From positions 14,562,378 through 14,626,377 of the forward strand of contig OY755240.1 in the NCBI GenBank assembly GCA_963576725.1: a stretch of 64,000 nucleotides of DNA. Direction: 5' to 3'. Made by a program: the position numbers and the translations under genes. The first letter of the stretch is position 1, and each line of letters opens with the position of its first letter. Positions 24,660 to 60,370 of the stretch are shown here, piece by piece. Source of the stretch: Azorinus chamasolen (Eukaryota > Mollusca > Bivalvia > Cardiida > Solecurtidae). The notes beneath the pieces are model-generated. The model was not told the DNA's origin and searched no databases. It saw nothing but the letters and a program-made list of their open reading frames with translations.

Positions 24660-25075
24660 CTAGTAAAATATGTTGAAGAAATGCGTTTTTAGACATCTTT
24701 TAAAAGATGCCAGTGAGGTGGCATCTTTGATGCCAGACGGCAGAGCATTCCAAAGTTTTGGAGCTGCATACATGAAACTTCTATCCCCGTATTTTACCGT
24801 CCGACTTTTTGGCACAACCAACGACACTGAACTACTTGCTGACCTTAACTCTCTGCGAGGCCTGTACACGTCAAGCATGTTGACAATGTACTTGGGGGAT
24901 TCATTGTGCATGGCTTTGTACGTAAGTGTCAAAATTTTGAATTCGATCCGATGTTGAACCGGAAGCCAGTGAAGTTCCTTCAAGACCGGAGTGATATGAT
25001 TATATCGAGAAGTCTTGGTTATGATACGTGCTGCTGTGTTTTGCACCCTTTGAAGTTTTCGCAGTGTGTTTTCTT
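24660..25075 (-). pseudogene. LINE ORF2 C-terminal domain
   Basis: Contains VQNTAARIITKTSRYNHITP, LHWLPVQHRIEFK and APKLWNALP, then stops at 24660. These are hallmarks of the C-terminus of CR1/Jockey-like ORF2. One extra G near 25080 separates it from the upstream RT frame. Confidence 0.85.
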
Positions 25076-26160: not shown

Positions 26161-26166
26161 TTTCTT

Positions 26167-27168: not shown

Positions 27169-27309
27169 AGGTTGATAGTAGTGCTGAAAGCTCCTACAGG
27201 AACTGAAAACATTGCTTTAGACCTGCATTAAACTGTGAACTTGATAAAATGTTCAGACTAAATTTCAGATGACTCGAACCTCTCTTATCTGGAAGTAATT
27301 GATGTTTGA

Positions 27310-31936: not shown

Positions 31937-32140
31937 AGTTGAACTTCAATATCTCGAACTCGGACAACTCGAAATTCGGGATAACTCGTACTAAAAGTTC
32001 GATCTTTCCAAAATATTACAATACAGAATTGCTCTAAAATGTATCACTACGCATATCTAGAAATACATTTCACAGCTTAATGCAGTTATACAGTAATGCT
32101 GAAAGCTCCTGCAGAAGCTTTCAGCATTACTGTATACCTG
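31937..32140 (+). repeat. H7 element, left half, interrupted by the gypsy element
   Basis: CAGTTGAACTTCAATATCTC begins the copy. The hairpin TTTCAGCATTACTGTATACC runs up to 32140. The right half (GCATTAATCTATGAAC...TTATCTCGAAC) resumes at 44203. Confidence 0.85.
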
Positions 32141-34023: not shown

Positions 34024-34027
34024 ACCG

Positions 34028-34045
34028 TGGTGGAGTAGTCAACGA
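34028..34045 (+). promoter_or_regulatory. Candidate tRNA primer-binding site
   Basis: TGGTGGAGTAGTC begins 4 nt after the LTR and just upstream of the gag ATG at 34049. A TGG start is expected for a site complementary to a tRNA CCA end. I could not assign the tRNA. Confidence 0.45.
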
Positions 34046-34048
34046 TCC

Positions 34049-34999
34049 ATGACAACGCCAAGAAATAGGTACTACCTTAGAAGCATCCAAGATTCGGACT
34101 CTGAGACATCGGACGGTGAGGAACAGCCAACTGAGTACTGCTCACTAGACGACTCAATCAATCTAAGTGACATAAGTGATTCCGAGACAGAGACATCAAT
34201 GGCCAATCTTGTTAAGCTTAGTGCCTTTACGGGTGGAAATGGTGAAAAGGCGTCAGCATGGTTGTCCGAGTTCGAGGCATTTATAGCACTGAACAAGGTG
34301 CATAATGACCTCAGAGCAAGTACCCTGCCCTTCTACTTGGACGGAAAAGCTAAAGTGTGGTACAGGTCTCTCAATGAGGAGACCAAGACAAACTTTGACC
34401 TCCTCAAGGAAGCACTACAAACCAGGTTCAATGGAGATGATGGACTAGGCTTTGATTTTGCCATTTGGGCCCTGCATAAGCTGCCCCATGAGTCCGTAGA
34501 CGACTACTTCATGAGGGTCCAAACTTTCTCGGCAGAACAGTACCCATCATCGTTTCTGGTCAACGCAGCAATGCGGGGACTTACTGAGGACCTCCAGAGA
34601 ATTGTTATGCCACAAGGACTGACAACTCTGGAGGACCTGCGCAAGGCAACACTCCTTGCAGAAAGAACTTTAACAAATGCTGGACCAAGGGTAAATACCG
34701 TTCGACCAACAGAAATGGATGATATCAGGGGTCAACTGGCTGACCTGGCGAAACGGATGGACCAGTGCATGAGCCCGAGACATCCTGAGGAAGAGAAAAG
34801 GCCACAGCGACGGATGGAAGGACCCAGACGTCCAAACTATGCAAGAAGCTACGCCTGCAGGAATTGTAGAGGTATGGTTCCTCATTCTCTTAAACAATGT
34901 CCAGCATTTAATAAGCAATGTACTTATTGTAGGCGCCCCCATCATACTGAAGCAGTATGTGAAATTAAAGAGAGAGAAAGGGGTTTAGGTAACCAATAG
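34049..34999 (+). CDS. gag: Gag polyprotein of the gypsy element
   Basis: 316 residues from ATG at 34049 to TAG at 34997. The N-terminus is acidic and Ser-rich. A Ty3/gypsy capsid-type (retrotrans_gag-like) region follows, with LPFYLDGKAKVWYRSL around residues 90-110 and LHKLPHESVDDYFMRV further on. Two zinc knuckles lie at the C-terminus: Cys270, Cys273, His279, Cys284 (one extra spacer residue), then a canonical CX2CX4HX4C at Cys291, Cys294, His299, Cys304. It packages the element RNA. The frame continues without any further stop into pol, so the UAG is probably suppressed to give Gag-Pol. Confidence 0.92.
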   Translation: MTTPRNRYYLRSIQDSDSETSDGEEQPTEYCSLDDSINLSDISDSETETSMANLVKLSAFTGGNGEKASAWLSEFEAFIALNKVHNDLRASTLPFYLDGKAKVWYRSLNEETKTNFDLLKEALQTRFNGDDGLGFDFAIWALHKLPHESVDDYFMRVQTFSAEQYPSSFLVNAAMRGLTEDLQRIVMPQGLTTLEDLRKATLLAERTLTNAGPRVNTVRPTEMDDIRGQLADLAKRMDQCMSPRHPEEEKRPQRRMEGPRRPNYARSYACRNCRGMVPHSLKQCPAFNKQCTYCRRPHHTEAVCEIKERERGLGNQ

Positions 35000-35020
35000 G
35001 GGTGCGAGCCTGTCCGTAAG
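34997..35020 (+). promoter_or_regulatory. In-frame UAG readthrough site between gag and pol
   Basis: Context CAA-TAG-GGG-TGC. The gag and pol frames are the same. The seven codons after the UAG are open and reach the first Met of pol at 35021. A G directly after UAG resembles the gammaretroviral readthrough context. Reinitiation at 35021 is the alternative. Confidence 0.6.
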
Positions 35021-38000
35021 ATGAAGCCATCTGCGGATAGGCAAAGCAATGAAAAGTTAGCAGACTCGGCAACTGGGTCTAACTCAAATTCAAAGCTTAA
35101 GGCTAAAATTAGAGTTGATAAAGTGTTAGAAAGACAAAATCAAAAATCTTCTGCCAATAAATCACATAGTGCTCAATCTGTTAAGACTTCTGCCATAAGA
35201 GATTCTAAACCAAAGTTAAACTTAAAGCAGTCAAAAACACAGAGTAGTTTTAAAAATTCACAAAAAGCAGAAAATACGATTACGGTAGCTACATCTTTGA
35301 CAAGAAATTTGATAAATGTAAAAATATTTGACAAAAATGTTCAGGTTCTCGTAGACTCTGGAGCAAGTATCAGCTGCCTAGACAGAGGCATGTTTGAAAA
35401 GTTAGCATCTAAAACTCAGTTCAAACTTGAACCTTCAACTCTGCGAAATGTGGTTGGTGTTGGTGGTGAAAGGCATTCAGTGCTAGGTGATGTTCATATT
35501 CCTGTAGTGATAGCAGGATTGAAAATCATTCAGAAATTTGCTGTCATTGGTGGGCTTCACCAGTCTGTAATTTTAGGCTTGGATTTCATGACTGAAAACC
35601 ATGTCAAAATTGACTTTCACAGCCGTTTGCTTTCCATTGGCGATGATATTGCTGTGGTTACTCTCAAATGTGATAGTAAATTTGGTTATGCTAGGCCTCG
35701 TGATAGGGTTACTATTTCGGCACATTCTGAAACAGTCATTCCTGTCAAGCTCTCAGGGGCTTACAAGAATGCAACCGTTTTGCTGGAACCTTCAGAAAAC
35801 CTTCAATCCATGATGATAGCAGGAGCAAGGTGCTTAGTATCACCAAACAAAAAGAAGGCATCTTTCAAAATTTTGAATCCAACTGACCAGGATATCACTC
35901 TGTCACCAACCACAGTTGTAGCAAACATAAACTTGGTAGATAATTCAAAAGTGTTTCCTTTTGGGCAAGAAAAACATGCGTCTGTGCAAAATGTAAATCT
36001 GACCGAGTGTCGTGCAGAACAACAGAAATCTGACTTGCAGTTCAATATAAATAGTTCAAATCTAACAGAATCTGAACGACAGAAACTTGAGAACTTTCTC
36101 CATCAGAATAGTGATGTTTTTGCTTCATCATTGTCAGAAATAGGAAAAACTGGTAATTTCAAACATAAAATTGACACTCTGCCAGGATCGGCTCCTGTTC
36201 ATTTACCACCTCATAGAGTAGATCCAATTAAAAAGAAGGAAATTGAACGCCAATGTTTGGAAATGAAAGAAGCTGGTCTGATTGTACAATCTGATTCGGT
36301 TTGGCATTCCCCAGTAGTTTTGGTCAAAAAGAAAGACAGTTCATGGAGGTTTGCTATTGATTTTAGGAAATTAAATAGTATAACTATCCCAATCTCTCAT
36401 CCATTACCTAGAGTTGAGGATGTCTTTGATGCTCTAGGGGAATCAAAAGCGAAAGTATTCTCTACTCTAGATTTAAACTCTGCATATTTCCAAATTGAGC
36501 TTGACCCTGAAACCAGACATAAGGCTAGTTTTGTCACACATGAAGGGGTTTTTGAATTTTTAAGGATGCCTTTCGGCCTTCGGAACGCTCCCCAAAGTTT
36601 CCAATTTTTGATGTCTGTTGTTCTCCGAGGGATGAACTGGAAATTCGTTCTATGTTACATAGACGATATTCTGGTTTTCAGTCCAGACTTTGAAACACAT
36701 TTGGAACATTTGGATGAAGTTTTTCAGAGGTTACGGGATGCAAATCTTACTTTAAAACCCACAAAATGCAACTTCGCATCTGACAAAATCATGTTTTTAG
36801 GTCATGTTATTTCGGCACAAGGTGTTCAGGTTGATGCGTCCAAAACAGAAAAGGTTCAAAATTTTCCGCAACCTAAAACTCAGAAAGAACTGAGAAGTTT
36901 CATGGGACTATGTAACTATTACAGACGTTTTGTGTTAGACTACTCTAAAATCTGTGTACCACTCAATAAGTTATTAAAGAAAGATGTCAGAAGAGTTTTC
37001 TCAGTCTCTGATTGGACTGATGAGTGTCAAACTGCATTTGACACATTGAAGCAAGCCTTAGTTAGCCCGCCAATATTGAAATTTCCAGACATGAATAAAC
37101 CATTCATCTTGACGACTGATGCAAGTGGCTCTGCAATTGGCTACATACTTGGTCAGCTGGATGAAGCTGGTAGAGAGACTGTAATTGCTTATGGCGGTAG
37201 AGCTCTAAGGCCTGAAGAGATGAAATGGGCTATCACAGAATTAGAGTGTCTAGCTGTTGTCAATGGGATAGAAGCATACAAACACTACCTGACATCTAAT
37301 AAATTTACAGTTTACACTGATCATTCAGCTCTGAACTATCTGTTTAGTAAGAAAGAACCAACTGGTAGACTATATCGTTGGGCTTTAAAACTTCAGGCAT
37401 ACAATATGGAAATCAAGCATAGGAAAGGCTCAGCTAATCAAAATGCAGATGCAATTTCTAGGATAGATTACTCAAGGTTAGGGTCCACTGGAAATGAATC
37501 AAATGCATCTGTACATGTAACCGAAACTGTCAAATTGTCAAATGCAAACTCTTGGGTAAACTCTGCAAGCCCTGCTAAGACTGAGGTAAAGGAAACCCCT
37601 GAGAACAATGTAGAACAGTCAAATATTGCAAAATCTTCAACTAAAGAGATCAGATCAAATACCTGTCATATTGTTGAAAATAAGTCTGAAGAATTTGTGC
37701 AGTTATTGGAACCAAATGAAGCTGTAGAAGTTGAATTAGATTTTTCTGATCCCCCGCAAGTTAATTTGGTTGCAGAAGATGACATTACTGCAAAACAAAG
37801 GGAATGTGACTATTGTATGGATTTCATAAATGCTTTGGAGAACAATGTCTTCCCAGATAATCTTGATAGGGCTAAGGTTATTTCAATTCAATGTGATAGT
37901 CAGTTCGTAACAAAATATGGGGTTCTGTATCATATTTACACTCCTAGGGCAAAACATTCAAAGGGTGTGAAAGATCCAGACAAAATGGTTTTTCAGGTTG

Positions 38001-39577
38001 TCGTTCCAGTTTCCTTAAGAAAGTCTGTCTTGGAAAACTATCATGACTGTCTAGCTGGGGGTGGACACTTTGGTGTCAAACGCACTTTCGCAGCCATTAG
38101 GGAAAAGTACTTTTGGCCCAAAATGTGGCAAGAGATAAATGATTATGTCAAATCTTGTCATGTTTGTCAGAAGTCAAAGGTAGATAGACGGGGAAATCGT
38201 GTCCCGTTGCACCCACTGCCTGTTGAAAGTAGATTCTCTCGGATCCATATTGACATACTATGTTCATTGCCTAAAACAAAAGAGGGTCATCAGTACATTC
38301 TTTTGATTGTTGACAGTTTCACAAAGTGGACTGAATGTTTTCCATTAAAGACACAAGAGGCTAAAGAAATAGCAGAAACACTGTATAATGAATTCATCAC
38401 TCGGTATGGAGCACCAAGAACAATAGTTAGTGACCGTGGTCGAAATTTCATGTCAAAATTAGTCAGTGCACTTTGTGAATTGTTTGAAATCAAAAGGCAT
38501 CACACAAGTAGCTACCACCCACAAACAAATGCAACAGTCGAACGAGCAAACAGTACACTGTTGCAGACTATTCGGTCTTATGTTAGTAAGGATCAAATGA
38601 ACTGGCCAAAACTTCTTCCCAGTATCATGATGGCATTTCGATCTACTCCAAACACAGAATCGACCGGTTTTAGTCCATATGAGATGGTGTTTGGATCACT
38701 AATGAATCTGCCTATTGATACTAGTCTTGTTCCGAAATCCACTCTGCCACAATCGGCACAACAGTACCTTCATGAATTGACAGGCAGATTAAAGATTGTC
38801 TCTGATTTGGCAAAATTCAATCAAGAATCCAAACAGACTCAGGCAAAAGAACGATATGATAAGAAATCTAAGGCACCAACTTTCAGGGTAGGAGATAGAG
38901 TCTGGCTTAAACAGGACATGATTCCCCTTGGCCAGTCATCAAAACTTACGAATAAGAGGAATGGACCATATGTCATTACAGAACTAGGCCCTTCCTTTAC
39001 TTACAAAATTAGGAATGTGGACTCTAACAAGGTTCATAAATCATTGGTAAATGCGTCAAGGCTGAAGCCTGTAATCCAGAGACAAGAAATGCCTGATCCG
39101 GCGATTGACAGACCAGAGAGACCGGATCCGGTAATTGAGAGGCAAGAGATGCCAAATCCTGCAATTGAGAGGCAAGAGATGCCAAATCCTGCAATTGAGA
39201 GGCAACAGATGCCAGATGCAGAAGAAATTCAAGGGGATGATCACATTCCCGAGCCAAATCCACAACCAAAGCCCCCTCTTCCAGAGAAAAATGAAGGTGA
39301 ACCAAATGATGCCCAAGAAGAAGAGCCAAAAGACAATGCTAATAATACCCAGAATGCCCCTTTGAATGATATGGGTTCTGGACGTATTATCCATGCAAGT
39401 CGGAAGGGTGGTGTTCAAAGGTTTAGGATTGAATTTACAAATGGGAACAAAGCATGGTATTATGAAAATCATATTCCTCCAGAACTAGTACAGTTGTATC
39501 TTCGTAAATACAACAGACATGGCAAGAAACGTAAACGCAAAACAAGACCTAAATTCCTTACTCCGTCAAACAATTAG
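35021..39577 (+). CDS. pol: Pol polyprotein: protease, reverse transcriptase, RNase H, integrase
   Basis: 1518 residues, intact. In order: a Lys/Ser-rich leader; an aspartic protease with DSGA at residues 112-115; reverse transcriptase with LDLNSAYFQIEL, MPFGLRNAPQSF and the YIDD catalytic box near residues 546-549; RNase H with TTDASGSAIGY near 697 and YTDHSALNYL; integrase with an HHCC zinc finger (from about residue 1007, ending CHVCQ), a DDE triad (HIDIL, IVSDRG, TVERAN near 1076, 1136 and 1172) and a GPY module (NKRNGPYVI). The C-terminal tail has imperfect 11-residue repeats (IERQEMPNPA) and a basic end (KKRKRKTRPK). All catalytic residues that I can identify are present. It replicates and integrates the element. 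Expected to be made by readthrough of the UAG at 34997. Confidence 0.95.
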   Translation: MKPSADRQSNEKLADSATGSNSNSKLKAKIRVDKVLERQNQKSSANKSHSAQSVKTSAIRDSKPKLNLKQSKTQSSFKNSQKAENTITVATSLTRNLINVKIFDKNVQVLVDSGASISCLDRGMFEKLASKTQFKLEPSTLRNVVGVGGERHSVLGDVHIPVVIAGLKIIQKFAVIGGLHQSVILGLDFMTENHVKIDFHSRLLSIGDDIAVVTLKCDSKFGYARPRDRVTISAHSETVIPVKLSGAYKNATVLLEPSENLQSMMIAGARCLVSPNKKKASFKILNPTDQDITLSPTTVVANINLVDNSKVFPFGQEKHASVQNVNLTECRAEQQKSDLQFNINSSNLTESERQKLENFLHQNSDVFASSLSEIGKTGNFKHKIDTLPGSAPVHLPPHRVDPIKKKEIERQCLEMKEAGLIVQSDSVWHSPVVLVKKKDSSWRFAIDFRKLNSITIPISHPLPRVEDVFDALGESKAKVFSTLDLNSAYFQIELDPETRHKASFVTHEGVFEFLRMPFGLRNAPQSFQFLMSVVLRGMNWKFVLCYIDDILVFSPDFETHLEHLDEVFQRLRDANLTLKPTKCNFASDKIMFLGHVISAQGVQVDASKTEKVQNFPQPKTQKELRSFMGLCNYYRRFVLDYSKICVPLNKLLKKDVRRVFSVSDWTDECQTAFDTLKQALVSPPILKFPDMNKPFILTTDASGSAIGYILGQLDEAGRETVIAYGGRALRPEEMKWAITELECLAVVNGIEAYKHYLTSNKFTVYTDHSALNYLFSKKEPTGRLYRWALKLQAYNMEIKHRKGSANQNADAISRIDYSRLGSTGNESNASVHVTETVKLSNANSWVNSASPAKTEVKETPENNVEQSNIAKSSTKEIRSNTCHIVENKSEEFVQLLEPNEAVEVELDFSDPPQVNLVAEDDITAKQRECDYCMDFINALENNVFPDNLDRAKVISIQCDSQFVTKYGVLYHIYTPRAKHSKGVKDPDKMVFQVVVPVSLRKSVLENYHDCLAGGGHFGVKRTFAAIREKYFWPKMWQEINDYVKSCHVCQKSKVDRRGNRVPLHPLPVESRFSRIHIDILCSLPKTKEGHQYILLIVDSFTKWTECFPLKTQEAKEIAETLYNEFITRYGAPRTIVSDRGRNFMSKLVSALCELFEIKRHHTSSYHPQTNATVERANSTLLQTIRSYVSKDQMNWPKLLPSIMMAFRSTPNTESTGFSPYEMVFGSLMNLPIDTSLVPKSTLPQSAQQYLHELTGRLKIVSDLAKFNQESKQTQAKERYDKKSKAPTFRVGDRVWLKQDMIPLGQSSKLTNKRNGPYVITELGPSFTYKIRNVDSNKVHKSLVNASRLKPVIQRQEMPDPAIDRPERPDPVIERQEMPNPAIERQEMPNPAIERQQMPDAEEIQGDDHIPEPNPQPKPPLPEKNEGEPNDAQEEEPKDNANNTQNAPLNDMGSGRIIHASRKGGVQRFRIEFTNGNKAWYYENHIPPELVQLYLRKYNRHGKKRKRKTRPKFLTPSNN

Positions 39578-39804
39578 ATTGATTGATAGTTAGTCACCTC
39601 CATGTTGTTGGTAAATCTGAACAAAAACCTACCTAGGATTCTATCCCTCTTAACCTGTTCTACCCATATTAGATATCAGCATTGAAACCTACGACTCCTT
39701 CAAGTCGTCTACTAGTGCTATTCTCCCTTCTTGCTTCCTTGCTGATATTTGAGCAAACTCCTTCTTTCTCTTCAGGGTTTCCAACTATACATTGTCTGTT
39801 TGGC

Positions 39805-42141
39805 ATGCTTATCTTCATCTTGGTTGTGGGTATGAGGGAAGGAACTAGGACTCAGCAAAGGATCAACTATGGAGTAGTTTTTCAACACACTAATGACCTG
39901 TACTTTGCCATGGATGATTGGTATCACACATTTGAGATATTTCTTCCAGAAGTAAATGAATTGCCATTGTTGCCAAACTGTAAATTGAACAATAATTCTT
40001 GCATGGTTATCTCGCATGTCTTGAACCATTTGAATGTACTCAGAACAGAAATGAACGCTAGGATCAATGACACATTAAACTCTATTTTCGAGCTCATTCC
40101 AGAGACTAGGGTACACAAATCCAGGAGTAAACGGTCACTCCTGCCTTTTATTGGGAAATTAAGTAGAGGGTTATTTGGCACCGCAACTATGGATGATGTC
40201 AACTTGTTGGCAACACACATGAATCGGTTAACGAAAATGAATATAGGCCTGACACAAGCACTCAGGCAGCATGAAGACCACCTCAGTTCATACATTAAGG
40301 GTGCAAACCATCGAATGGATAATCTAATGGCAGGAATTAAAGATAACATGCTTGCCATAAAATTCATTCAGACAGAATTATTCACAACTGAAATCAATAT
40401 AGATCAAACCATTGAATATATCATGGATATACTCATTGATCAAATCAAAACTGCAAATGAGATTAATAGTGAATTAACTGACCTGAAGTATGGTGTTCTA
40501 GAACTTTTAAATGAAAAGTTGTCTCCTCTTCTGATAGATGAGCAAACAATGCAGCAAACTGTGTATGACATTCAGAATATTCTGCAGACAAAATTTACTG
40601 GGTTTCATTTGGCTATCAGTAACATACAGGACATTTACTCAAAGACTAAGATTTTGTTTGTCAGGAATAATACCAGACTTTATGTTACATTAAAATTTCC
40701 GGTTTCCTATTTGCATAAACCTCTTCAGCTGTATAAGGTGCTGACCTTTCCGGTGCCCATTAACACTACTTCTGAACATGCTACCCAGCTCCTTGATCTT
40801 CCAAAATATTTTGCAATCACAAATGATCATCAACACTATTCTCAAGTTGAAGAATCAGTTTTAAGAGAATGCAGTGGTTCTGAAACAAAGACATGTTCAT
40901 CTAATATACCATTAATTCCAGTAACTGAAACGACATGTGTTTTAGCACTTTTTGCCAATGACAAGCACCAAGTGATTACCCAGTGTAACTTTAGGTTTCT
41001 TCACAATGCCATTGAACCAAAAATGATAGAGTTATCTCCTAATTCACTTGTATTGTACAGAAATCCTCTATTATCGGTCGAATGTGGTCATGAACATAAA
41101 ATGGTGGCTGGTTGTGACTTCTGTATTTTCCATCTGTCTTGCAGATGTTCATTATCAACAAATAAACAATACTTCATTCCACGCCTTGGTTCATGTCATA
41201 AGGAAATTGATAATTTTACAATTCTCCATCCCGTCAATCTTGCTCTGTTGCAGCACTTCTTTGATAATGAATTCGTCAGCAAAATCTTCGCTGATACTAC
41301 CTTTCAAAAACCTGTCAACATGACAGTTCCAGAGATGAAAATCTATCAGCATGAAATTTCCGATATAATTGCCTCTGATGCTAAAGCTCATCTAAATCTT
41401 TCCAAAATGGCTGAAGCAGCTAAAAAGGATGTATTAATATTCAAGTCTCTTACTGATCCATTGCTTTATAGACAAATTAAGCTGGAATCTGAATGGCCGA
41501 CAACTGAAAATATTATGACTTATTGTTCTCTTGTTGCCTCCTGCATCTTGACTGTTCTTCTTTTAATGATTATCATAAAAGTACGCAAATTAACAGTTGT
41601 AATAGCTACCTTGCAGAATGTTAAGAAATCAGAATCTCTGTTAACTGATATTCCATCATTCATTTACACAAGGCGACCACCTGCATCCATTGGTACCACT
41701 GAATCAGGACAAAACTTTAACTTCGCATTCGATCAAGCAAATTTTGTTATACTTTGCACAGTTTTGATATTTGTCTTGATTGCTATTTTGCATTATCTAT
41801 GTCGTCAGCACAAGTCAAAGCTTAGTCTAGAAATAACCAATGGTAAACAATGTATTTTGATTGACTTAGTTCAGTTGCCGGTGTGCTCTTCTCATTGCAA
41901 AGTCAAAGTGCCGTATGATATCAATAACATATCAGTCACAGGTTACTTGAGGCCTAAATTGCACGTTACCTGGCCCGATTTTGAAATTATAAATTTAATG
42001 ACAGATAAGTCCATCACAGTCAAAAACGAAATCTCTCTCTCTATTCTCATAGCATACAAAATTAGGTCCATTATAGCAAAACCATATGATGTTTACTTAT
42101 ACAAAATCAATCATGGTGTCATGATACCTTTACGACAATAA
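39805..42141 (+). CDS. env: Env-like glycoprotein, baculovirus F/errantivirus type
   Basis: The frame is open from before 39682, but the first true ATG is at 39805, giving 778 residues. A strong splice acceptor (pyrimidine tract ending TTCAG at 39775) lies just upstream, as expected for env made from a spliced RNA. Features: a short hydrophobic start; a furin-type RSKR site at about residues 107-110, followed by a hydrophobic fusion-peptide-like stretch; a helical region with heptad-like spacing; clustered cysteines; and two hydrophobic segments near the C-terminus (about 41510-41580 and 41740-41800). The RSKR-plus-fusion-peptide layout is that of F-type envelope proteins carried by errantiviruses. 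It is in a different frame from pol. No internal stop is present. A second membrane segment and a long C-terminal domain after it are unusual. Confidence 0.85.
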   Translation: MLIFILVVGMREGTRTQQRINYGVVFQHTNDLYFAMDDWYHTFEIFLPEVNELPLLPNCKLNNNSCMVISHVLNHLNVLRTEMNARINDTLNSIFELIPETRVHKSRSKRSLLPFIGKLSRGLFGTATMDDVNLLATHMNRLTKMNIGLTQALRQHEDHLSSYIKGANHRMDNLMAGIKDNMLAIKFIQTELFTTEINIDQTIEYIMDILIDQIKTANEINSELTDLKYGVLELLNEKLSPLLIDEQTMQQTVYDIQNILQTKFTGFHLAISNIQDIYSKTKILFVRNNTRLYVTLKFPVSYLHKPLQLYKVLTFPVPINTTSEHATQLLDLPKYFAITNDHQHYSQVEESVLRECSGSETKTCSSNIPLIPVTETTCVLALFANDKHQVITQCNFRFLHNAIEPKMIELSPNSLVLYRNPLLSVECGHEHKMVAGCDFCIFHLSCRCSLSTNKQYFIPRLGSCHKEIDNFTILHPVNLALLQHFFDNEFVSKIFADTTFQKPVNMTVPEMKIYQHEISDIIASDAKAHLNLSKMAEAAKKDVLIFKSLTDPLLYRQIKLESEWPTTENIMTYCSLVASCILTVLLLMIIIKVRKLTVVIATLQNVKKSESLLTDIPSFIYTRRPPASIGTTESGQNFNFAFDQANFVILCTVLIFVLIAILHYLCRQHKSKLSLEITNGKQCILIDLVQLPVCSSHCKVKVPYDINNISVTGYLRPKLHVTWPDFEIINLMTDKSITVKNEISLSILIAYKIRSIIAKPYDVYLYKINHGVMIPLRQ

Positions 42142-42319
42142 AGTCACCTATAAAGCTGGACATTGTGGATGGTTTGAGAAACCATATATCTGCTTTAATT
42201 TTGTACAATGTTGTATATATGTTACCTGTTACCTTGTTTTATATTTTTCATACGTTATGTATCAGCTCTCTAGAAAATTTCAAACTTTGGGGACCAAAGT
42301 CTCTAAACAAGGGGGAAAG
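42142..42319 (+). other. 3' internal region with polypurine tract
   Basis: Non-coding sequence after env ending in AAGGGGGAAAG directly before the 3' LTR. That is the expected polypurine tract priming plus-strand synthesis. Confidence 0.75.
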
Positions 42320-44202
42320 TATAATGCCCCAAAAATGTGTAAAGAAAGAGCGACAGGGAGAAAGAAAGAATGAGAGAGAATCATAGATAAGGAATGATAG
42401 ACAGAAATAATAACAAAGAAATGTACATGACAGACAAATGATTAAGCATGGGAGTGGGTGAAATAATGGAGGAGTGAATTGTATTTGAGAGAATGTGCAG
42501 TGATAAAAGGGTAGTTTTAGAGAAAACTTGTTTTATAAATGAAATGTATATGATATTTTTCCATAATTTGTTAATATCCTGATCATATTAGAATGTATAC
42601 CTTTCTTCAAACTTTGGGGAAATATGTAGGAATGTAACATATGTTAGTGTTGATTGCTTTTCCTTTTAAGTAACTATTGGGCTATTGTGTAAAAGGCTTG
42701 CCTGTTGAAAGCTGCTAATTATAATAACAACATTGTAACTTAAGCACCTGACTTTTAGTCTCCATGCTGGACACTTTAATTACCTACAGTTAAAAGTGTT
42801 AATAGGTTGGCTTGGAAATAGGGTTGATAGTGTTAACATGCTATCACCTTGTTTTCATGAAACTTCACACTTCTAGATTGTGGACATTTTAAGTAAATGC
42901 CACAATGGACTCGGTATGCTTAAAAGGAAAGTAATACTCAAATAGGAATTTGACATCTGTTGAGCAGATTTGGGATATAAACCCGAGCAATTTCAATGTA
43001 CAGCATAATATACTGTACAAGAAGAAATAAACGAACAAGAAATTGAACTCGGGACCTCTGCTCTTTTCAGGTATGTTAAATATAATTATGTTATCTTCTT
43101 TTCTAATAATGTACCTACATTGTGATATGTTTGTTACCAATCTAATGATTGGAAATTGTATCATTTGTAGCAGAATTGTAACTAGCGTTGCTGCAGTTTT
43201 CAATAAGTATCTGAAATACTGTATTTGCTGTAATTTATATCAAAATTATAGCTAATATGGGAGAAGCCTGATATTTTACTAAATAAACTTTGGCTGGACT
43301 CGGATACATGTTATCACTAAATTGGTGATACAGAAAATCAAATGGAAGTTTGCTCATGTTCAAAATTGTAAAACTGCTACATTTATAAATTTGCTACACT
43401 TATCCCATGGATTATGTAAATATGTTTGATCAGGATTATCTGTAACTTTAAATTAATCCTTAAACTGGTTTTATATATGTCTCATTCATCTGAGCCTACA
43501 GGCTCCTGTAAACTGATAGAGGAATACAGAGTAGACCTAGACCAGAAGCCACTCAAAGAGTCCTGGTTTGGGTCAGCACTGTTTGCAGAGTTGTTCTATT
43601 GTCGAATATAGTTCAGCTACAATTACTGGTTTTGTAATAGACAGGGACATACAGAGTAGACCTAGACCAGAGGGCTGTATGAATAGCTATCTGGCTAGGG
43701 TCTGCACTATATGCATGATTGTGCATTACTTAGTCATCTGAATCTATATGATATGCTGAACGTATTTCATATGGTAGATTAGTTTTAAAATGACATTTAT
43801 TTTTGTCTAGTAAAGCATATACTGTTTTAGGTTCAGATTAGTATTAGGTACTAAGTACTTTTGGTTAATAGAAATACATGTTTGTTTCTATGTAAATCAT
43901 GGATGAAGGAATCAAGTATTTAAATCCATTTAAGTCTGCGAGCGTTGTCTGTGTCAACCTCTCGCATGTTTAAGTGAGTCTTTACCTTTTCTGTTAATTC
44001 CCCATTTAAAAGCAGATACTGTTAACCCTTCATCTTTGGTTTAAATTATGCAATTGATTTGATTAGATAATATACTGTACAAGAAGAAATAAACGAACAA
44101 GAAATTGAACTCGGGACCTCTGCTCTTTTCAGCTCGCCCCTCGTAACACTTATAAGTCACACACACATAAGCTTCTAAGGGACCGTGAATCGACGGCATC
44201 AA
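42320..44202 (+). repeat. 3' LTR of the gypsy element
   Basis: 1883 bp, the same length as the 5' LTR with a constant offset of 10179. One substitution was noted (43876 A against 33697 G). It is followed by ACCTG, the right copy of the target duplication. Confidence 0.92.
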
Positions 44203-46504: not shown

Positions 46505-46890
46505 CTAAGCCTTTACTACATGAATATGAATTTCATGTAAGACATAATGGCATATAATATTTATTTCATTATTTTTATAATGAATATATAAGTGTTTAGC
46601 CATTGCAGAAACTGCTGAATCATATTATTCCCTAAGCAAACAGAGCAGAATCTAATCATGGTCCATGCTTATAAAGCTTTTAGTTGAGTCTGAGTTTCGT
46701 TCTCAAGCTTTTGATTGGTCAGATTTGAGCCTTTGGCTCAAATCTGACCAATCAAAAACTTGAGAACGAACTCAGACTCAACTAAACGTTTTATAAGCAT
46801 GGATCCGGACTGCTACTTACAGAGCCGTCTGAATTGGTTCTACTCTGTTTGCAAATGCATAGAAAGACGTATTTATGGAGTGAAAGTGAA
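46505..46890 (-). repeat. H1 MITE interrupted by a long perfect hairpin
   Basis: The H1 left flank (AAGCCTTTACTACATG) and the arm GCAGAATCTAATCATGG precede the insert. The other arm GAGCCGTCTGAATTGG and GTATTTATGGAGTGAAAG follow it. Confidence 0.7.
46668..46801. repeat. ~134-bp near-perfect hairpin
   Basis: CATGCTTATAAAGCTTTTAG...TCAGATTTGAGCC and the inverse GGCTCAAATCTGACCAATCA...TTTTATAAGCATG meet with almost no loop. CATGG/TCCATG and GCATGGATCC at the borders suggest a small target duplication. Confidence 0.85.
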
Positions 46891-49679: not shown

Positions 49680-51165
49680 TATCTTATTAAATAAAAAAGT
49701 TACAGCTAATCCTCATTTTTGCAGATTTTTGTAAAGTGCAACGGCCATAACTCAGTCTCTGTAAAGACAAACTGAATAAACCTCAAAATAAACTCAGCTT
49801 CAAATTTTGTTGCTTAAAACATTTGTGTTCAGTTTCATATATATCATTTTAATAGTTTTCCCAGAAAACAACAGACAAACTAAAAGTTGACCGACAAACA
49901 AAGCAACTAACACACAAAGTTCAAGGACCATAACTTTAGAATAAAATGACATATCAAAACCCCCGCAATATTTGTGAACATTCACATTAAGGTTTAACCA
50001 TATAAAAAATTGAATCGACTTAGCTTCAGGTCTTGATGCATTAAACATGTGTATGAAGTTTCATTAATATCTGTCAAACAGTTTTTCCAGAAAACAGCGG
50101 ACAAACTATATGCATATATTTGCATTATTTTTTAATTAAAAGGGCCATAACTCCGAAACGACAAATCAAATAAACCTCAAAATCGACTCAACATCAGATC
50201 TTGATGCATTAAACATTTGTGTGAAGTTTCATTAATATCTCTCAAATAGTTTTCCCAGAAAACAGCGGACAAACTATTTGCATGTATTTGCATTATTTTT
50301 TAAATACAAGGGCCATAACTCCGAAACGACAAATAAAATTGACTCAGCTTCAGATCTTGATGCATTAAACATTTGTGTGAAGTTTCATTAATATCTCTCA
50401 AATAGTTTTCCCAGAAAACAGCGGACAAATTATTTGCATATTTTTTAAGGACAATGGCCATAACTCTGAAATGAAAAATCAAATGAACCTCAGAATCAAC
50501 TCAGCTTCAGATCTTGATGCATTAAACATTTGTGTGAAGTTTCATTAATATCTGTCAATTAGTTTTCCCAGAAAACAGCGGACAAACTATTTGCATATAT
50601 TTTAAGGACAAGGGCCATAACTCTGAAATGAAAAATCAAATGAACCTCAGAATCAACTCAGCTTCAGATCTTGATGCATTAAACATTTGTGTGAAGTTTC
50701 ATTAATATCTGTCAAATAGTTTTCCCAGAAAACAGCGGACAAACTATTTGCATGTATTTGCATTATTTTTTAAGTAAAAGGGCCATAACTCCGAAACGAC
50801 AAATAAAATGAACCTCAGAATCGACCCAGCTTCAGATCTTGATGCAATAAACATTTGTGTGAAGTTTCATTAATATCTCTCAAATAGATTTCCCAGAAAA
50901 CAGCGGACAAACTATTTGCATATATTTTAAGGACAAAGACCAGAACTCTGAAATGAAAAATCAAATGAACCTCAGAATCAACTCAGCTTCAGATCTTGAT
51001 GCATTAAACATTTGTGTGAAGTTTCATTAATATCTGTCAAATAGTTTTCCCAGAAAACAGCGGACAAACAAAATGTTGACGGACGAACGAACGAACGAAC
51101 GAACGGACGGACGGACAGGGCCACGACAATATACGACCACCTTTATTAGGTGGGCGTATAATCAA
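49680..51165. mobile_element. Repeat with ~150-bp tandem array and GACGGACGAACG...GGGCGTATAAT end
   Basis: About eight diverged units, each with AGATCTTGATGCATTAAACA, GTGTGAAGTTTCATTAATAT, CCCAGAAAACAGCGGACAAA and GGCCATAACTC. The array ends in a CGAACGAACG/GACGGACGGA tetranucleotide run and GGTGGGCGTATAAT. TTATACGCCC at 58021 is the same terminus inverted, so both belong to one bivalve repeat group. No coding potential. Confidence 0.8.
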
Positions 51166-52328: not shown

Positions 52329-52346
52329 ACTATAAGATACTATACG
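52329..52346. repeat. 18-bp target-site duplication, left copy
   Basis: ACTATAAGATACTATACG, identical to 57898-57915 at the other end of the Penelope-like element. Confidence 0.9.
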
Positions 52347-52866
52347 ACACTTCCCTGTCGTGCCCTTAACGGCTTACCTGCAGGTGCTCTGTCTTCAGCA
52401 AAGTCATTGAGTACATATTTGACGGATTGTCACAGTTATTATGCTATGTTTTACATGTTGTCCTGTGTTCACCGTCGTCTATGTTGTGGGTAAGTCCAGC
52501 GGGGATACCTTTATTTACAATATTTGTAAAGCTAGGGTGACTTTGAGAGAAGTGTGAGGTTAGGACGTCCGTAAACCGGTTTAAACCCCCAGTGGTGTTT
52601 TTGCTGCTGACCGTGCCAAGGCGGTACTCTCTTTGTCACCCTTCCTTTTGTTTGCCTTGCGTCTTTGTGCTTGTGGTTTGTTCATGTTGTGGAACGTTTG
52701 TCCCTGGTTCTTGTGTGTCTTTTGGTGTATTCTGTGTTCATTTCGTGTGTGTGTGCGTTTGGGTGTGTGGTTGTGTGTGTGTGTGTGTGTCATGCTGTCT
52801 ATCGGTGTTTGGGTGGTGGTTGCGTCTTGCCTGTGGCTTTGCCTGCTTGACTTTACTACTTTTCCA
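52347..52866 (+). repeat. 5' pseudo-LTR of the Naiad element
   Basis: From TTCCCTGTCGTGCCCTTAAC (52351) to CTACTTTTCCA it matches 57380-57897 nearly base for base, apart from small differences in the GT microsatellite. The reading frames within it are GT-rich artefacts. It lacks the SECIS-like motif found upstream of the 3' copy. Confidence 0.88.
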
Positions 52867-53698
52867 TTTATAAGCACAATAGTGTTGTTTGTGCAGTGTG
52901 GCGGCGGTGAAACGTCTCCCCGTACATCCAATCAATATTGTTTTCTTCCTCTTGCAGGAATTGCTCTACATTCAATGTGTTTCCTCATACCTTTACACCG
53001 TACTTTGCACTTCATGGTGGCTTCCGTACTCACCGACATATTGTGTGACTATTTTAATTTCCCTTTTAAGATTTGTGCCCTTTGCGTTTTCTCTAGTGTG
53101 ACTTTACCTTATTTGTGTTTCTTCTTACTTTTTACCCATTCAATGTTTTACTATTCAATGTTTCATTCATATTCTTAGTCTTCTTTATTTTTGTCATAAC
53201 CTCTGGTATGTTTTTTATTATTTTACACCATTTTTCGTTACATACGTATGTCGCTTTTTACAGAAGGGTGCTACAATTACTACACAAAATATGAATAGTC
53301 TCCCTAAACTCAAAATTAATAACTTAAACTTACACTCTGTGTCTTCCGTTCAGATTCCTCATAACCTGGCTAATTTCCAATCACTACAGCCGTCAGTTTG
53401 TATTAAACCTCTAAAATTGTCTTCTGTTTCATCTTTTCATGTTCCCTCTTCGGCTATTAGTAACATTTTTCATAATGGACCTAAAATCGTTTTGTCTCCT
53501 TTAAAGCAATCTATCATTCGTTATAGTAAAGTCCATCTAAATTCACATTATTTGAACAAAAGACATAGGGTGTATCCAATAATTACTAAGTGCAATAGTA
53601 AGAGGTGTATGTGTTGCAATTTCATTTCTACTAGATCAACAATTAAATCTCTTGTTAATGGTAGAGTGTTTAGTGTGAAGATTAATTCTGATTTAGAC

Positions 53699-53734
53699 TG
53701 AAACTCATCTAATATTATATATGTTCTTACATGA
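53699..53734 (+). other. Two in-frame TGA codons in the nuclease zinc-binding segment
   Basis: TGA at 53699-53701 falls at the Cys before NSSNIIYVLT, and TGA at 53732-53734 at the Cys after it (followed by NAPRC). In relatives these are metal-binding cysteines. Either selenocysteine codons or Cys-to-stop decay. Confidence 0.7.
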
Positions 53735-54595
53735 AATGCGCCACGTTGTGGCATTCAATATGTAGGTCAGACAGGACGTTCTTTAAAAACTAGGTTTCGT
53801 GAACACAGTTACCATTGCCGGATCAAAAAAGTACGCAATTTTCTTTACCAGCATTTTCGTCATACAGGACATTCTTTCAAATATGTTTCGGTTCAACCAG
53901 TAGAACAAATTTATTATGATTCTAAAACTACTGGTAGATTAAAATCTAAAGCTCGTTTTATCACAGAGCTAGACTGGATAAAGAAATTACAAACACCTTT
54001 TCCTTTAGGCCTTAATGATAACATTTTCCAAAGCGGCAACATTTCTAAAGATCCAAGTATCGATATTTTCTCTATATTTTCTATTCGAAAACGTAAAAGT
54101 AGATCACATGACAGACGTAGAAATGGTAATATTAAGCGTAAATTACGTCGTAATATGTCTATTCATGATTTACATACTATTCTAAAACAAACTGGTAAAC
54201 ATTCTATGTTATCTTGTTTATCGTCTTTACCCTTTTCCTGTCTTAAGTCAATAGACGAAGAGGCTGATAAAATCTATATGCGTACAGATCCGTTAATTAA
54301 TACTGCCTCACTTATACAAAGTTACACACAGCATGTTCTTCGTCCTCGTATTGATAAAGAATCTGAACATAAAAGACATTTTCTGAAACTTCAGTTCCTA
54401 AATAAAGGTATCGGTTTTATTGATATTCAAAGTATATTTCGTGATAAGAATGTAATCGATGCTATTCCCAAATATTTCATCAACTCTGAATCACCTATCA
54501 TCTTTTATAAATATAATAAACCTATTAGAAATGTTATTTTTAACTACAATAAAATTGTCTCTGACTTAAATATTGATGTTAATACCCCTATTTCT

Positions 54596-54598
54596 TGA
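54596..54598 (+). other. In-frame TGA at the first Cys of the CxC motif
   Basis: Reads PIS-TGA-D-C-SISSF. The CxC motif between nuclease and RT characterises N-terminal-nuclease Penelope-like elements; its first Cys is replaced by TGA here. Confidence 0.7.
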
Positions 54599-54628
54599 GA
54601 TTGTAGCATTTCTAGCTTTTGCTATAAA

Positions 54629-54738
54629 TGGAAAAGTAGTAAAGTCAAGCAGGCAAAGCCACATGCAAGACGCAACCACCACCAAAACACCGATAGACAG
54701 CATGACACACACACACACACACACAACCACACACCCAA

Positions 54739-54790
<52 letters not shown>

Positions 54791-54892
54791 AATGAGCAAA
54801 GAAAACACCAAAAGACACACAAGAACCAGGGACAAACGTTCCACAACATGAACAAACCACAAGCACAAAGACGCAAGGCAAACAAAAGGAAA
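54629..54892 (-). mobile_element. Inverted pseudo-LTR fragment nested in the Naiad frame
   Basis: The reverse complement matches the right part of the 52347-52866 pseudo-LTR, from about the GTTTGCCTTGCGTC word to CTACTTTTCCA, including an expanded CA/GT run. It lies between SISSFCYK and PVGHVITG of the Naiad protein. GGAAA at both borders may be a target duplication. Length 264 nt, a multiple of three. Confidence 0.8.
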
Positions 54893-55225
54893 CCAGTTGG
54901 TCATGTCATTACTGGTAATTTTGATGTCATTAAGGATAAACGTCTCAGGACCCTCCTAACTAAAGGACCTAAATATAGATTACCTTCCCTTATTGATTTT
55001 GACGCTTGTCGAACTCATATTGCGGAAGCTATTCAAGAATTCTGCATCAAATGGTGTCGACGAGAACATGCTGATGTTAATGCCCTTTCGGATTGGAAGA
55101 AATGTATTTTCGATATTATTGATACGCGAATAACTTTTTACAAATCAAATTACCATCTTTTACCACCTCGACCTAGAGTTACATTTCGCTACTTGAAGAA
55201 AAACATTTCTAATTTTCATTCAGAT

Positions 55226-55228
55226 TAA
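55226..55228 (+). other. In-frame TAA in the RT N-terminal region
   Basis: HSD-TAA-VLVPADKAS. This is the only non-TGA stop in the frame and a genuine nonsense mutation. Confidence 0.75.
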
Positions 55229-55273
55229 GTTCTTGTTCCTGCTGACAAGGCATCAAACAATGTAATCATTATT

Positions 55274-55276
55274 TGA
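55274..55276 (+). other. Fourth in-frame TGA at a conserved Cys position
   Basis: PADKASNNVIII-TGA-RLYY. Relatives have Cys (often C-K/R-x-Y-Y) right after the hydrophobic strand. The reading frame is then cut by the insert at 55289. Confidence 0.65.
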
Positions 55277-55288
55277 AGATTGTATTAT

Positions 55289-55855
55289 AAGTACAAAAAT
55301 GAGTCATGCAGGAAACACCACATACAGAACAAACACTCGCCCGAACAGCAACACAAGGAAACAGCAAATGTACATAGGTAGAAAAAACAACAAGAGACTC
55401 ACAAAGACAAAACAAACATACAATAGGAGGAAGATGGAAGTACCGCCTTGGAACGGTCAGTGACAAAAGTCACCGGGGGTTTAAACCGGTTTATGGGCGC
55501 CCAACCTCACCCTTATTCCATCCCCATCCTAAAAGACAAACAGTGTAAATAAACGTATTCCCTCTCCGACTAATCTACAACAACCGCGACAGCAAAAACA
55601 GTGGTAAAGTGCATGTATAACAAAAAAACATTTTATTGGAAATACTGTATCCACCTATCGCTATTGTACTCAATGATTGAGCTGCAAACAGAGTAACTGT
55701 AGAAAAGTAATAAAGGGTACGACAAAAATGAAATAGTACAGATATCCGACGTTCTCCTTCCAATTCTGGATTTAAGAGGTCGCCTTCATAGAGTACTAAA
55801 CCTTTCTTGTCGGCGTACATGCAAAGAGGCCAGCGTGATTGCCAACTGTAAAAGG
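55289..55855 (-). mobile_element. 5'-truncated copy of a second Naiad subfamily, inverted
   Basis: The reverse complement begins in the C-terminal coding end (FTVGNHAGLFACTPTRKV, then TAG), aligned with FTVGSYASLFVCAMTGRG of the host element. It then runs through a 3' UTR and terminal region ending CTCATTTTTGTACTT. It shares the GGTTTAAACC...CCTTGGAACGG region with other copies but is clearly diverged from the 5' and 3' pseudo-LTRs. The 21786-22078 insert belongs to this same subfamily. It interrupts the host protein between RLYY and VDVLKKEL. Confidence 0.82.
55747..55802 (-). promoter_or_regulatory. SECIS-like motif in the nested inverted copy
   Basis: On the minus strand TAGTACTCTATGA (ATGA at 55789-55786) is followed by 12 nt and AAA (55773-55771), then GGAG. 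This is the same layout as 57309-57362, although the intervening 12 bases differ at several positions. Confidence 0.5.
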
Positions 55856-57308
55856 GTTGATGTTTTAAAGAAGGAGCTAACTGATTCAAAAACTTATATA
55901 ACAGTTCAAACACCTGAAAAAGATATAGTCTCGGAACATGTAAAAATGTGCAATAATTTTAAGTCTGGTCCTAACATAAAACAACATAAACTTTCTACTT
56001 TGTACTGGATTCCGAAACTACATAAAAACCCTTATAAGTCGCGTTTTATTGCCAACTCTAGCTGTTGTACCACTACTAAGTTATCTATACTTTTGACGTC
56101 CTGTCTTACTACGATCAAAGAACATGTTAAACGCTACTGTGATAAAATATATGAAAATTCTGGTATTAATGTTTTTTGGTCCATAACAAATTCAAATGAT
56201 GTTTTAACAAAACTTGAAAATGAACAGTATAACATTTCTTTACTGAGCTCTTATGATTTCTCTACACTCTATACTACTCTACCTCACCATCTTATAAAGG
56301 ATAAACTTATTAAATTAATAGCAAAAACCTTTGCCAGAGAAAACAAAATGTTCATTGCTTGTAATGTTCAACGTTCATTCTTTTCAAATTCAGAAGTTGA
56401 ACATTACACAATGTGGACTTGCCTTGATGTTTGTAGATCTCTTACCTTTCTTTTAGATAATATATTTGTGCGTTATGGGGATACCATATATCGTCAAGTT
56501 GTTGGTATACCCATGGGTACAAATTGTGCCCCTCTTGTTGCAGATTTGTTTTTGTATTGCTACGAGAGGGATTTTATGCTTAGCTTAAAACCTGATACAC
56601 AGACCGATATTGTTAATGCTTTTAATAAAACTTCAAGGTATTTAGACGATATTTTGAATTTAGATAATCCTTATTTTGATACTATGGTTTCTTCAATCTA
56701 CCCAAAAGAACTGTCTTTAAACAAAGCTAATCAATCTGACATTAATGCTTCATTTTTAGATTTGAATCTTTCAATTACAAATGATAAAGTTTCGTCCAAA
56801 GTATACGATAAAAGAGAAGATTTTAATTTTAAAATTGTTAATTATCCTTTTCTAGATGGGGATGTGCCACGTTCTACATCTTATGGGGTTTATATTTCTC
56901 AACTTATTAGGTTTGCCCGAGCCTGTTCTTTGCTTGAAGATTTTAACAGACGTAATTTAGTTATAACTGATAAACTTCTTAAGCAAGGTTACAGATATCA
57001 CAAACTTCGGAAAACCTTTTCTAAATTTTATTATCGAAATTTACCTCTCATTAGTAAATATAATTGCAATCTACGGACGTTACTGCGACAAGGCATTTCT
57101 CAACCAGAATTTTATGGGGATGTTATCTACAAACTTAGGAAAATTCGGGGTCATATCCATTTTCATGATTTGTTTATAAAAAGCATTAAAACATTTAAAA
57201 AGAAAGGTTATGATCCTATTATATTGCAACACACTGCATGTTTGGTTATCGACCCTTTTACAGTCGGTAGCTACGCTTCCCTCTTTGTTTGCGCGATGAC
57301 AGGCCGAG

Positions 57309-57362
57309 GGTAGTACTCTATGATGGTATACTCTTAAACTTGGATACAGGAGGAGCTTACCA
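57309..57362 (+). promoter_or_regulatory. Candidate SECIS element in the Naiad 3' UTR
   Basis: Starts at the stop codon. ATGA at 57320-57323, 12 nt, AAA at 57336-57338, then GGATACAG and GGAG near 57350-57355. CTCT before ATGA pairs with GGAG, and GTAT pairs with ATAC around the apical loop. The ATGA-to-AA spacing fits eukaryotic SECIS elements. The pairing I can draw by hand is imperfect. Confidence 0.5.
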
Positions 57363-57379
57363 GACTCATGTATTACTTT

Positions 57380-57897
57380 TTCCCTGTCGTGCCCTTAACG
57401 GCTTACCTGCAGGTGCTCTGTCTTCAGCAAAGTCATTGAGTACATATTTGACGGATTGTCACAGTTATTATGCTATGTTTTACATGTTGTCCTGTGTTCA
57501 CCGTCGTCTATGTTGTGGGTAAGTCCAGCGGGGATACCTTTATTTACAGTATTTGTAAAGCTAGGGTGACTTTGAGAGAAGTGTGAGGTTAGGACGTCCG
57601 TAAACCGGTTTAAACCCCCAGTGGTGTTTTTGCTGCTGACCGTGCCAAGGCGGTACTCTCTTTGTCACCCTTCCTTTTGTTTGCCTTGCGTCTTTGTGCT
57701 TGTGGTTTGTTCATGTTGTGGAACGTTTGTCCCTGGTTCTTGTGTGTCTTTTGGTGTTTTCTGTGTTCATTTCGTGTGTGTGTGTGTGCGTTTGGGTGTG
57801 TGGTTGTGTGTGTGTGTGTGTCATGCTGTCTATCGGTGTTTTGGTGGTGGTTGCGTCTTGCATGTGGCTTTGCCTGCTTGACTTTACTACTTTTCCA
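57380..57897 (+). repeat. 3' pseudo-LTR of the Naiad element
   Basis: 518 bp matching the 5' pseudo-LTR. It includes the GCCAAGGCGGTACTCTC block and a GT microsatellite, and ends CTACTTTTCCA directly before the 18-bp duplication. Confidence 0.88.
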
Positions 57898-57915
57898 ACT
57901 ATAAGATACTATACG
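57898..57915. repeat. 18-bp target-site duplication, right copy
   Basis: ACTATAAGATACTATACG, identical to 52329-52346. Confidence 0.9.
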
Positions 57916-59799: not shown

Positions 59800-59871
59800 C
59801 AAACAGTTTTGATATTGATGAGACGTCGAGGTATTCGGCGTCTCTTCTGGATTAAAACTGTTTTCACCGGT
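59800..59871 (+). repeat. H3 hairpin core that borders the minisatellite
   Basis: GTTTTGATATTGATGAGACG...GGCGTCTCTTCTGGATTA, then ACTGTTTTCACCGGTAATCA, which grades into the array. Confidence 0.75.
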
Positions 59872-60370
59872 AATCACAGATGCGACACAGACACCGGTAA
59901 ACACAGATGCGACACAGACACCGGTAAACACAGATACGACACAGACACCGGTACTCACAGATGCGACACAGACACCGGTAAAACAGATGCGACACAGACA
60001 CCGGTAAAACAGATGCGACACAGACACCGGTAATCACAGATGCGACACTGACACCGATAAACACAGATGCGACACAGACACCGGTAAAACAGATGCGACA
60101 GACACTGGTAAAACAGACCCGACACAGACACCGGTAAAACAGATGCGACACTGACACCGGTAATCACAGATGCGACACTGACACCGGTAAAACAGATGCG
60201 ACACTGACACCGGTAATCACAGATGCGACACTGACACCGGTAAAACAGATGCGACACTGACACCGGTAATCACAGATGCGACACTGACACCGGTAAAACA
60301 GATGTGACACAGACACCGGTAATCACAGATGCGACACAGACACCGGTAAAACAGATGCGACACTGACAGC
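59866..60370. repeat. ~26-bp minisatellite (CACCGGTAA...CAGATGCGACA)
   Basis: About 19 units of CACCGGTAATCACAGATGCG ACACWGA type, alternating a GTAATCA/GTAAACA form with a shorter GTAAAACAG form. Open in several frames on both strands because of the repeat; not coding. Confidence 0.92.

Follow-up and report, generated by a model that had tools for sequence, protein, structure and literature searches.

A Naiad-type retroelement of a bivalve with TGA codons at conserved cysteine sites, probably decoded as a selenoprotein

Is a retroelement frame that contains four TGA codons the relic of a dead copy, or a message in which these codons are read as an amino acid? The question is raised by a Penelope-like element (PLE) in a stretch of 64,000 nucleotides from the bivalve Azorinus chamasolen (assembly GCA_963576725.1, contig OY755240.1, positions 14,562,378 to 14,626,377), hereafter the window. 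Its open reading frame (ORF; 53291..57313, plus strand) runs from ATG to TAG and specifies a GIY-YIG nuclease, a linker with a CxC motif (here UDC) and a reverse transcriptase (RT), in that order, interrupted by two antisense pieces. A preliminary description, made from the letters of the window, had counted four TGAs in a frame of about 1060 codons, placed each of them where the family has cysteine, and taken the element for a Naiad that uses selenocysteine (Sec). With the inserted pieces excluded, the native frame is 1063 codons long and holds four TGAs and one TAA, five stops in all (a scan with slightly shifted piece ends gave 1061 codons and the same five stops), and all four TGAs lie in the ATG-to-TAG frame at the positions first given. 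From the sequence evidence set out below, we consider it very probable (roughly 0.93) that this is a Naiad-type element whose mRNA is decoded as a selenoprotein. The reading is supported by TGAs that are kept between copies, by a Sec insertion sequence (SECIS) in three subfamilies, by selection on every segment of the frame and by a tRNA-Sec in the same genome.

Each TGA falls on a cysteine site of the family. As a reference we picked 11 Cys-type relatives from the predicted proteins P0001-P0020, leaving out P0001 (which has tryptophan at two of the sites), three proteins without a linker match, and near-duplicates. Site 1 (53699..53701) lies directly upstream of the GIY motif and site 2 (53732..53734) between GIY and YIG, and both are cysteine in 9/9 aligned relatives; site 3 (54596..54598), the first cysteine of CxC, and site 4 (55274..55276), after PADKASNNVIII, are cysteine in 11/11. 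The CxC motif itself appears in relatives as CDC, CNC, CTC and similar forms. Ten columns of the frame are cysteine in at least 90% of the 11 relatives, and the window copy has TGA at four of them and TGT or TGC at the other six; by a rough estimate with mutational weights, the chance that four random TGAs would all land on cysteine columns is about 2.5e-5.

The same codons are TGA in other copies of the element. We searched the window's own assembly (1.72 Gb, 137 contigs) with the RT piece, which yielded 88 scored matches from 48,628 first-look candidates, 98-100% identical and none with a stop in the RT. The 40 regions that were read (L-numbers below denote loci read from the assembly) cover 44 of the 87 other listed RT-match places and represent the best-scoring copies. 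TGA was found in 20/20 copies at site 1, 22/22 at site 2, 30/30 at site 3 and 43/44 at site 4, the counts being lower upstream because 5' truncation is common. Stops elsewhere amount to one TAG among 36,737 remaining codon cells, cells counted twice having been removed. The TGAs are thus neither private to this locus nor equally frequent at non-cysteine positions, the two outcomes that would have spoken against the preliminary description. Variants common to several copies comprise 22 synonymous and 15 non-synonymous changes (N/S 0.23 of the neutral expectation), and singletons 68 synonymous, 78 non-synonymous and one stop (0.39 of the neutral expectation), both counts including 201 doubly counted cells; those found only in the window copy are too few for use, at 3 synonymous, 9 non-synonymous and 1 stop.

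Sister subfamilies in the same genome extend this pattern over a larger evolutionary distance. With the Cys-type relative P0002 as query we obtained 46 rows; all carry three TGAs where they match, and two have an extra TAG; three loci of this subfamily that were read (L052-L054) have TGT at site 1 and TGA at sites 2-4 in 3/3. A search with P0010 gave 68 rows, some of which overlap places of the P0002 search: 18 long rows with three TGAs (plus a TAA in one and a TAG in two), 25 rows with two TGAs (plus a TAA in one), and 25 rows that match the nuclease. Among these nuclease rows 24 carry a single TGA, joined in one row by a TAA, and the last carries only a TAA. Three loci read from the P0010 search (L055-L057, 98% alike) form a third subfamily, which likewise shows TGT, TGA, TGA and TGA at sites 1-4, and in L056 the second cysteine of CxC has become tyrosine. 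Protein identity among the three subfamilies is 69-73%. Between L019, an uninterrupted member of the window subfamily, and L052, the non-synonymous divergence (dN) is 0.209 and the synonymous divergence (dS) 1.976 over 1029 codons. In the five segments bounded by the TGAs, the ratio of non-synonymous to synonymous differences per site (pN/pS) is 0.45, 0.29 (10 codons only), 0.22, 0.31 and 0.24. Purifying selection has therefore acted on all five segments before, between and after the TGAs, and values of 0.22-0.45 in every segment indicate that each has been translated over a long time.

The recurrence of TGA appears to be a property of this clade. As a control we used P0018, a PLE with its GIY-YIG motif at residues 604-628 of 804, which found 94 rows in the same genome; stops occur in 9 of these rows and total 14, namely 8 TAA, 3 TAG and 3 TGA. 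Since a PLE with a C-terminal nuclease shows no recurrent TGA, the recurrence belongs neither to PLEs in general nor to the assembly. The genome also holds a clear tRNA-Sec (80.7 bits, G000:C15:42628169-42628254); the model had 35 matches there, three of them over the cut-off, and in 14 control genomes weaker matches were found in all 14 and matches over the cut-off in 5. We also observed that weaker matches of the tRNA-Sec model (41-47 bits) cluster at G000:C1:60683786-60699209 and C8:93460576-93511879; these are perhaps tRNA-Ser or tRNA-derived repeats.

A SECIS-like hairpin follows the ORF in all three subfamilies read. In the window it spans 57312..57374 (plus strand) and begins at the stop codon, with ATGA at 57320-57323 set against GA at 57363-57364 and the apical AA at 57336-57337. 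The spacing is constant, in that the hairpin lies 9 bases past the ORF end in L019, L052, L053 and L057. L055 has an early TAA, and there the distance from the ORF end is 236 bases. The Rfam model SECIS_1 matches L052-L054 with 26.0 bits, and L055 and L057 with 36.3 bits (E 2.3e-4), above the cut-off of 35; no match was obtained in L056, where the frame enters repeat sequence before its usual end. The stretch is identical in 41/45 copies, and the eight core bases are kept in 45/45. Five distinct SECIS sequences allowed us to look at covariation: 87.1% of 70 cells are paired, and 11 double-sided pair changes were counted against a shuffled mean of 4.6, with 0/500 shuffles as high in either measure. 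When the pairing partner is shifted by one to three bases, pairing falls to 39-54%. The outermost pair fails in 3/5 of the distinct sequences. A strict descriptor run over both strands of the 64 kb found six places, including the hairpin at 57312..57374 and a second SECIS within one of the inserted pieces (55735..55797, minus strand; SECIS_1 26.5 bits, cut-off 35), and its only place with 10 pairs is the one at the stop codon of the ORF. When the 300 bases after the stop were shuffled, 10 pairs arose in 0/2000 and 9 pairs in 2/2000. We further noted a diverged SECIS at L015 643-708, the 3' end of a neighbouring copy, in which some helix pairs have been lost.

Relatives in a predicted-protein database show that cysteine and stop replace each other at site 3. 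We found 366 relatives of the segment between sites 2 and 3, of which 120 were listed; among these 120, 66 stop exactly before site 3, 42 have cysteine there and 12 are unscorable. Of the same 120, 40 stop exactly before site 4. A tree of site 3 that includes the window needs 17 changes between cysteine and stop, and branches with good support force 10 of them; this quick tree leaves 41 of 106 inner branches unsettled. The RT part (55856..57310, plus strand) has 3321 homologues with E at or below 0.001, of which the best 120 were listed. Among the 119 homologues P0021-P0139, 104 are short of site 4, 9 span it with cysteine and 2 with tryptophan, and 4 have other N-termini. In 27 of the 120 listed RT proteins the tail consists of MM and three further residues; such tails would fit a SECIS in which the 5' arm is part of the ORF and the apical AA lies inside the stop codon. 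The source contigs of nuclease and RT pieces, compared by eye, are equal in size, which suggests that the two pieces of a relative share one contig.

Several side observations concern these relatives. P0001 and P0100 have tryptophan at both site 3 and site 4, and P0097 has it at site 4, which suggests a TGA read by the gene caller with code 4, a reading on which we do not rely. Some homologues (P0114, P0138, P0235) are named from Thiodiazotropha and Lucinoma-symbiont assemblies. A scan of genome_contigs found three loci, in assemblies titled Bathymodiolus symbionts or Thioglobus; two hold only RT parts and one has cysteine at site 4, and no SECIS match was found in the three, whose 3' ends may be uncovered. 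In viral_contigs, scanned with the RT and nuclease-linker alignments, 27 and 158 pattern matches confirmed no relative.

Could the stops nevertheless be real? The N-terminal piece, the nuclease, the linker and the RT might be made as separate proteins, through reinitiation or from several RNAs. Conserved stop positions agree with this, gene callers predict exactly such pieces, and selection on all segments would be expected here too. Every stop, however, sits exactly on a codon that is cysteine in relatives; sites 1 and 3 alternate between cysteine and stop; the SECIS is kept; and wherever DNA of the window subfamily was read, the stop at these sites is TGA alone. Separate products are accordingly very unlikely in our view, and selection on the segments, the SECIS and the cysteine sites, taken together, are best read as one frame translated through its TGAs.

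If the frame is translated as one, the amino acid inserted might still be another. Leaky readthrough of UGA by a near-cognate tRNA (for tryptophan, arginine or cysteine), with the hairpin incidental, is an explanation that gains from a window SECIS below the Rfam cut-off, but the hairpin has the SECIS quartet, the apical AA, a paired helix and compensatory changes, it exceeds the cut-off in one subfamily, and the sites concerned are cysteine sites. We hold such readthrough to be highly improbable. The private TAA and two insertions of the window copy might suggest a dead copy whose TGAs arose as random nonsense mutations. We regard this as refuted: nearly every copy read has TGA at these four codons, the sister subfamilies have it at sites 2-4 at a dS of about 2, and homologues from other sources stop at the same codons.

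Against decoding as a selenoprotein, several observations have to be weighed. The copies read are the best-scoring and near-identical ones and so do not represent independent events, whereas the sister subfamilies are independent; one copy (L028) has TCA instead of TGA at site 4; and one nuclease row of a sister subfamily (G000:C8:12503882-12504352) has one TAA and no TGA, unlike the other 24 rows, each of which has one TGA. The window SECIS reaches 23.2 bits with SECIS_1, below the cut-off of 35, and does not appear when the entire window is scanned with Rfam to E 3, a scan whose only listed SECIS is that of the inserted piece. Shuffled 64-kb windows average 2.6 hits with at least 9 pairs and 0.5 with at least 10, so the hairpin counts by its position and not by its score alone; a looser descriptor gave another place with 10 pairs. 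Two of five covariation measures, moreover, lie within the range of the shuffles, namely 6 pairs changed on both sides (43/500) and 10 pair types (464/500).

Sec insertion, its efficiency and the steps of transposition are what we infer, along the following lines. A host ribosome would start at 53291 and encounter four UGAs, while the SECIS at the ORF end (57312-57374) would recruit the factors that decode Sec: a SECIS-binding protein, the Sec elongation factor and tRNA-Sec. The UGAs would then be read as Sec in place of cysteine, at site 1 just ahead of the GIY-YIG nuclease, at site 2 within it, at site 3 in the CxC linker and at site 4 in the N-terminal region of the RT, and the full nuclease-linker-RT protein could nick DNA and reverse-transcribe its own RNA. 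Because three and four UGAs coexist in one genome and cysteine and stop switch at site 3, it is conceivable, if somewhat doubtful, that the gain of a SECIS made the change from cysteine to UGA reversible and recurrent, so that transposition is gated by host selenium, and that in some lineages the ORF ends on the apical AA of the SECIS, so that termination and recoding signals overlap. Most known selenoproteins contain one selenocysteine and are products of host genes; here a mobile parasite appears to use selenocysteine at up to four conserved cysteine sites.

An exact 18-mer occurs twice in the window as a target-site duplication (52329..52346 on the left, 57898..57915 on the right) and encloses two pseudo-long terminal repeats (pseudo-LTRs), one at the 5' end (52347..52874) and one at the 3' end (57380..57897), both on the plus strand; the match pairs 52351-52874 with 57380-57905, and over 522 aligned bases the two differ by 6 substitutions, of which two lie at the extreme edge. 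Given this near-identity the element looks young, and its near-identical copies indicate that the subfamily has been moving recently. The window copy itself is broken, as the preliminary description had held, by two antisense insertions and by a TAA (55226..55228) that is private to it, the codon being TAT for tyrosine in 44/44 other copies. The first nested piece (54629..54892, minus strand) is the 3' end of an element of the same subfamily (54623-54891 matches 57903-57671 in reverse); its junctions, set against the uninterrupted L019, are ambiguous by 3 bases (AAA), and it adds no stop to the frame. The second (55289..55855, minus strand) comprises the ORF end, stop, SECIS and pseudo-LTR of a three-TGA sister subfamily; it adds six TAA or TAG codons and no TGA, and a single base separates its SECIS from that of L052. 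The preliminary description did not mention the SECIS, the pseudo-LTRs and their target-site duplication of 18 bp, or that the interruptions are antisense in origin.

Other repeats lie elsewhere in the window. A stretch at 21790-22078, beside ORFs resembling a long interspersed nuclear element (LINE), is about 90% identical to the end of the second nested piece (55286-55580) and is probably another 3' remnant of the three-TGA subfamily. LINE-like RT and endonuclease ORFs at 24660-27193 (minus strand) are broken, as judged by eye. An apparently intact LTR retroelement lies at 33000-43478, with flanking repeats 100% identical over 300 bases, two ORFs linked in frame through a single TAG, one of 329 amino acids (gag-like) and one of 1525 (pol-like, by eye), and an additional ORF of 822 amino acids without a Pfam match. 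MicroRNA models matched hairpins at 4094-4168, 15558-15644, 16933-17006, 46700-46766 and 32073-32149, several on both strands; they are palindromic repeats, perhaps miniature inverted-repeat transposable elements. Tandem arrays are found at 10916-12020 (unit 155 bases), 50012-51069 (157) and 59865-60368 (27).

How does the element compare with known systems? Naiads are endonuclease-containing (EN+) PLEs in which GIY-YIG is N-terminal to the RT; they have a CxC motif in the linker and lack the canonical hammerhead ribozyme. Further traits of the group are an RT akin to telomerase, pseudo-LTRs with tandem or inverted partial copies, an insertion-in-fingers domain and a bias towards insertion at microsatellites. 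Judged by structure, that is, by domain order, CxC and pseudo-LTRs, the window element appears to be of this type. The GIY-YIG core (53714..53860, residues 142-190) precedes the RT and matches Pfam PF01541 with E 0.0026 and 18.5 bits, below the cut-off of 22.6; in the full-length relative P0002, GIY-YIG (107-193) exceeds its cut-off, and RVT_1 (625-826) narrowly misses its own (28 vs 29.6 bits). The RT piece of the window has no sequence match in Pfam or the Protein Data Bank (PDB), and for a structural model of it (pLDDT, a predicted confidence score, 69) the eleven best PDB matches by Foldseek are telomerases, all weak (E 0.005-0.39, none at or below 0.001). Besides pseudo-LTRs there are inverted partial copies, and RT copies lie 4192 bases apart on C4. 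The Rfam scan of the window to E 3 gave 46 matches, with no hammerhead family among them.

According to PMC11167929, canonical Penelope/Poseidon elements combine an RT with a C-terminal GIY-YIG, a hammerhead ribozyme and a pLTR-ORF-pLTR layout. The RT, the GIY-YIG nuclease and this layout are common to both, whereas the nuclease of the window element is N-terminal and the hammerhead is found in theirs, with none listed here up to E 3. A working likeness comes from molluscan Selenoprotein P, for which PMC8230778 gives 46 Sec in oysters and 132 in one bivalve: in both cases a bivalve message contains multiple UGAs, and a multi-Sec message with one SECIS would here be found in a host group that has a heavily multi-UGA selenoprotein. 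Theirs is a host gene and ours a retroelement, and the likeness drawn here is one of UGA number.

Closest to the window element are the Naiads of Craig et al. 2021 (Mol Biol Evol 38:5005). Reportedly, these occur with selenocysteine and several in-frame UGAs in clams and spiders, and possess an N-terminal GIY-YIG, a CxC linker, an RT, pseudo-LTRs, and tandem and inverted pieces. Selenocysteine Naiads of clams are thus said to be in print already, and the window element is a well-supported case of a known type; our own search, which covered mostly literature outside subscription and so gives no verdict on print generally, found no paper on selenocysteine in PLEs. Layout and multiple UGAs are alike in their elements and ours. 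What may be new lies in the details: the Cys/Sec difference at site 1 between subfamilies of one genome, the turnover of cysteine and stop at site 3, and the SECIS at the ORF end. The difference from their description is that three- and four-UGA subfamilies are shown here side by side, in one genome and with the SECIS in the same place, which offers a natural experiment on the mutual replacement of cysteine and selenocysteine and on whether retrotransposition is selenium-dependent.

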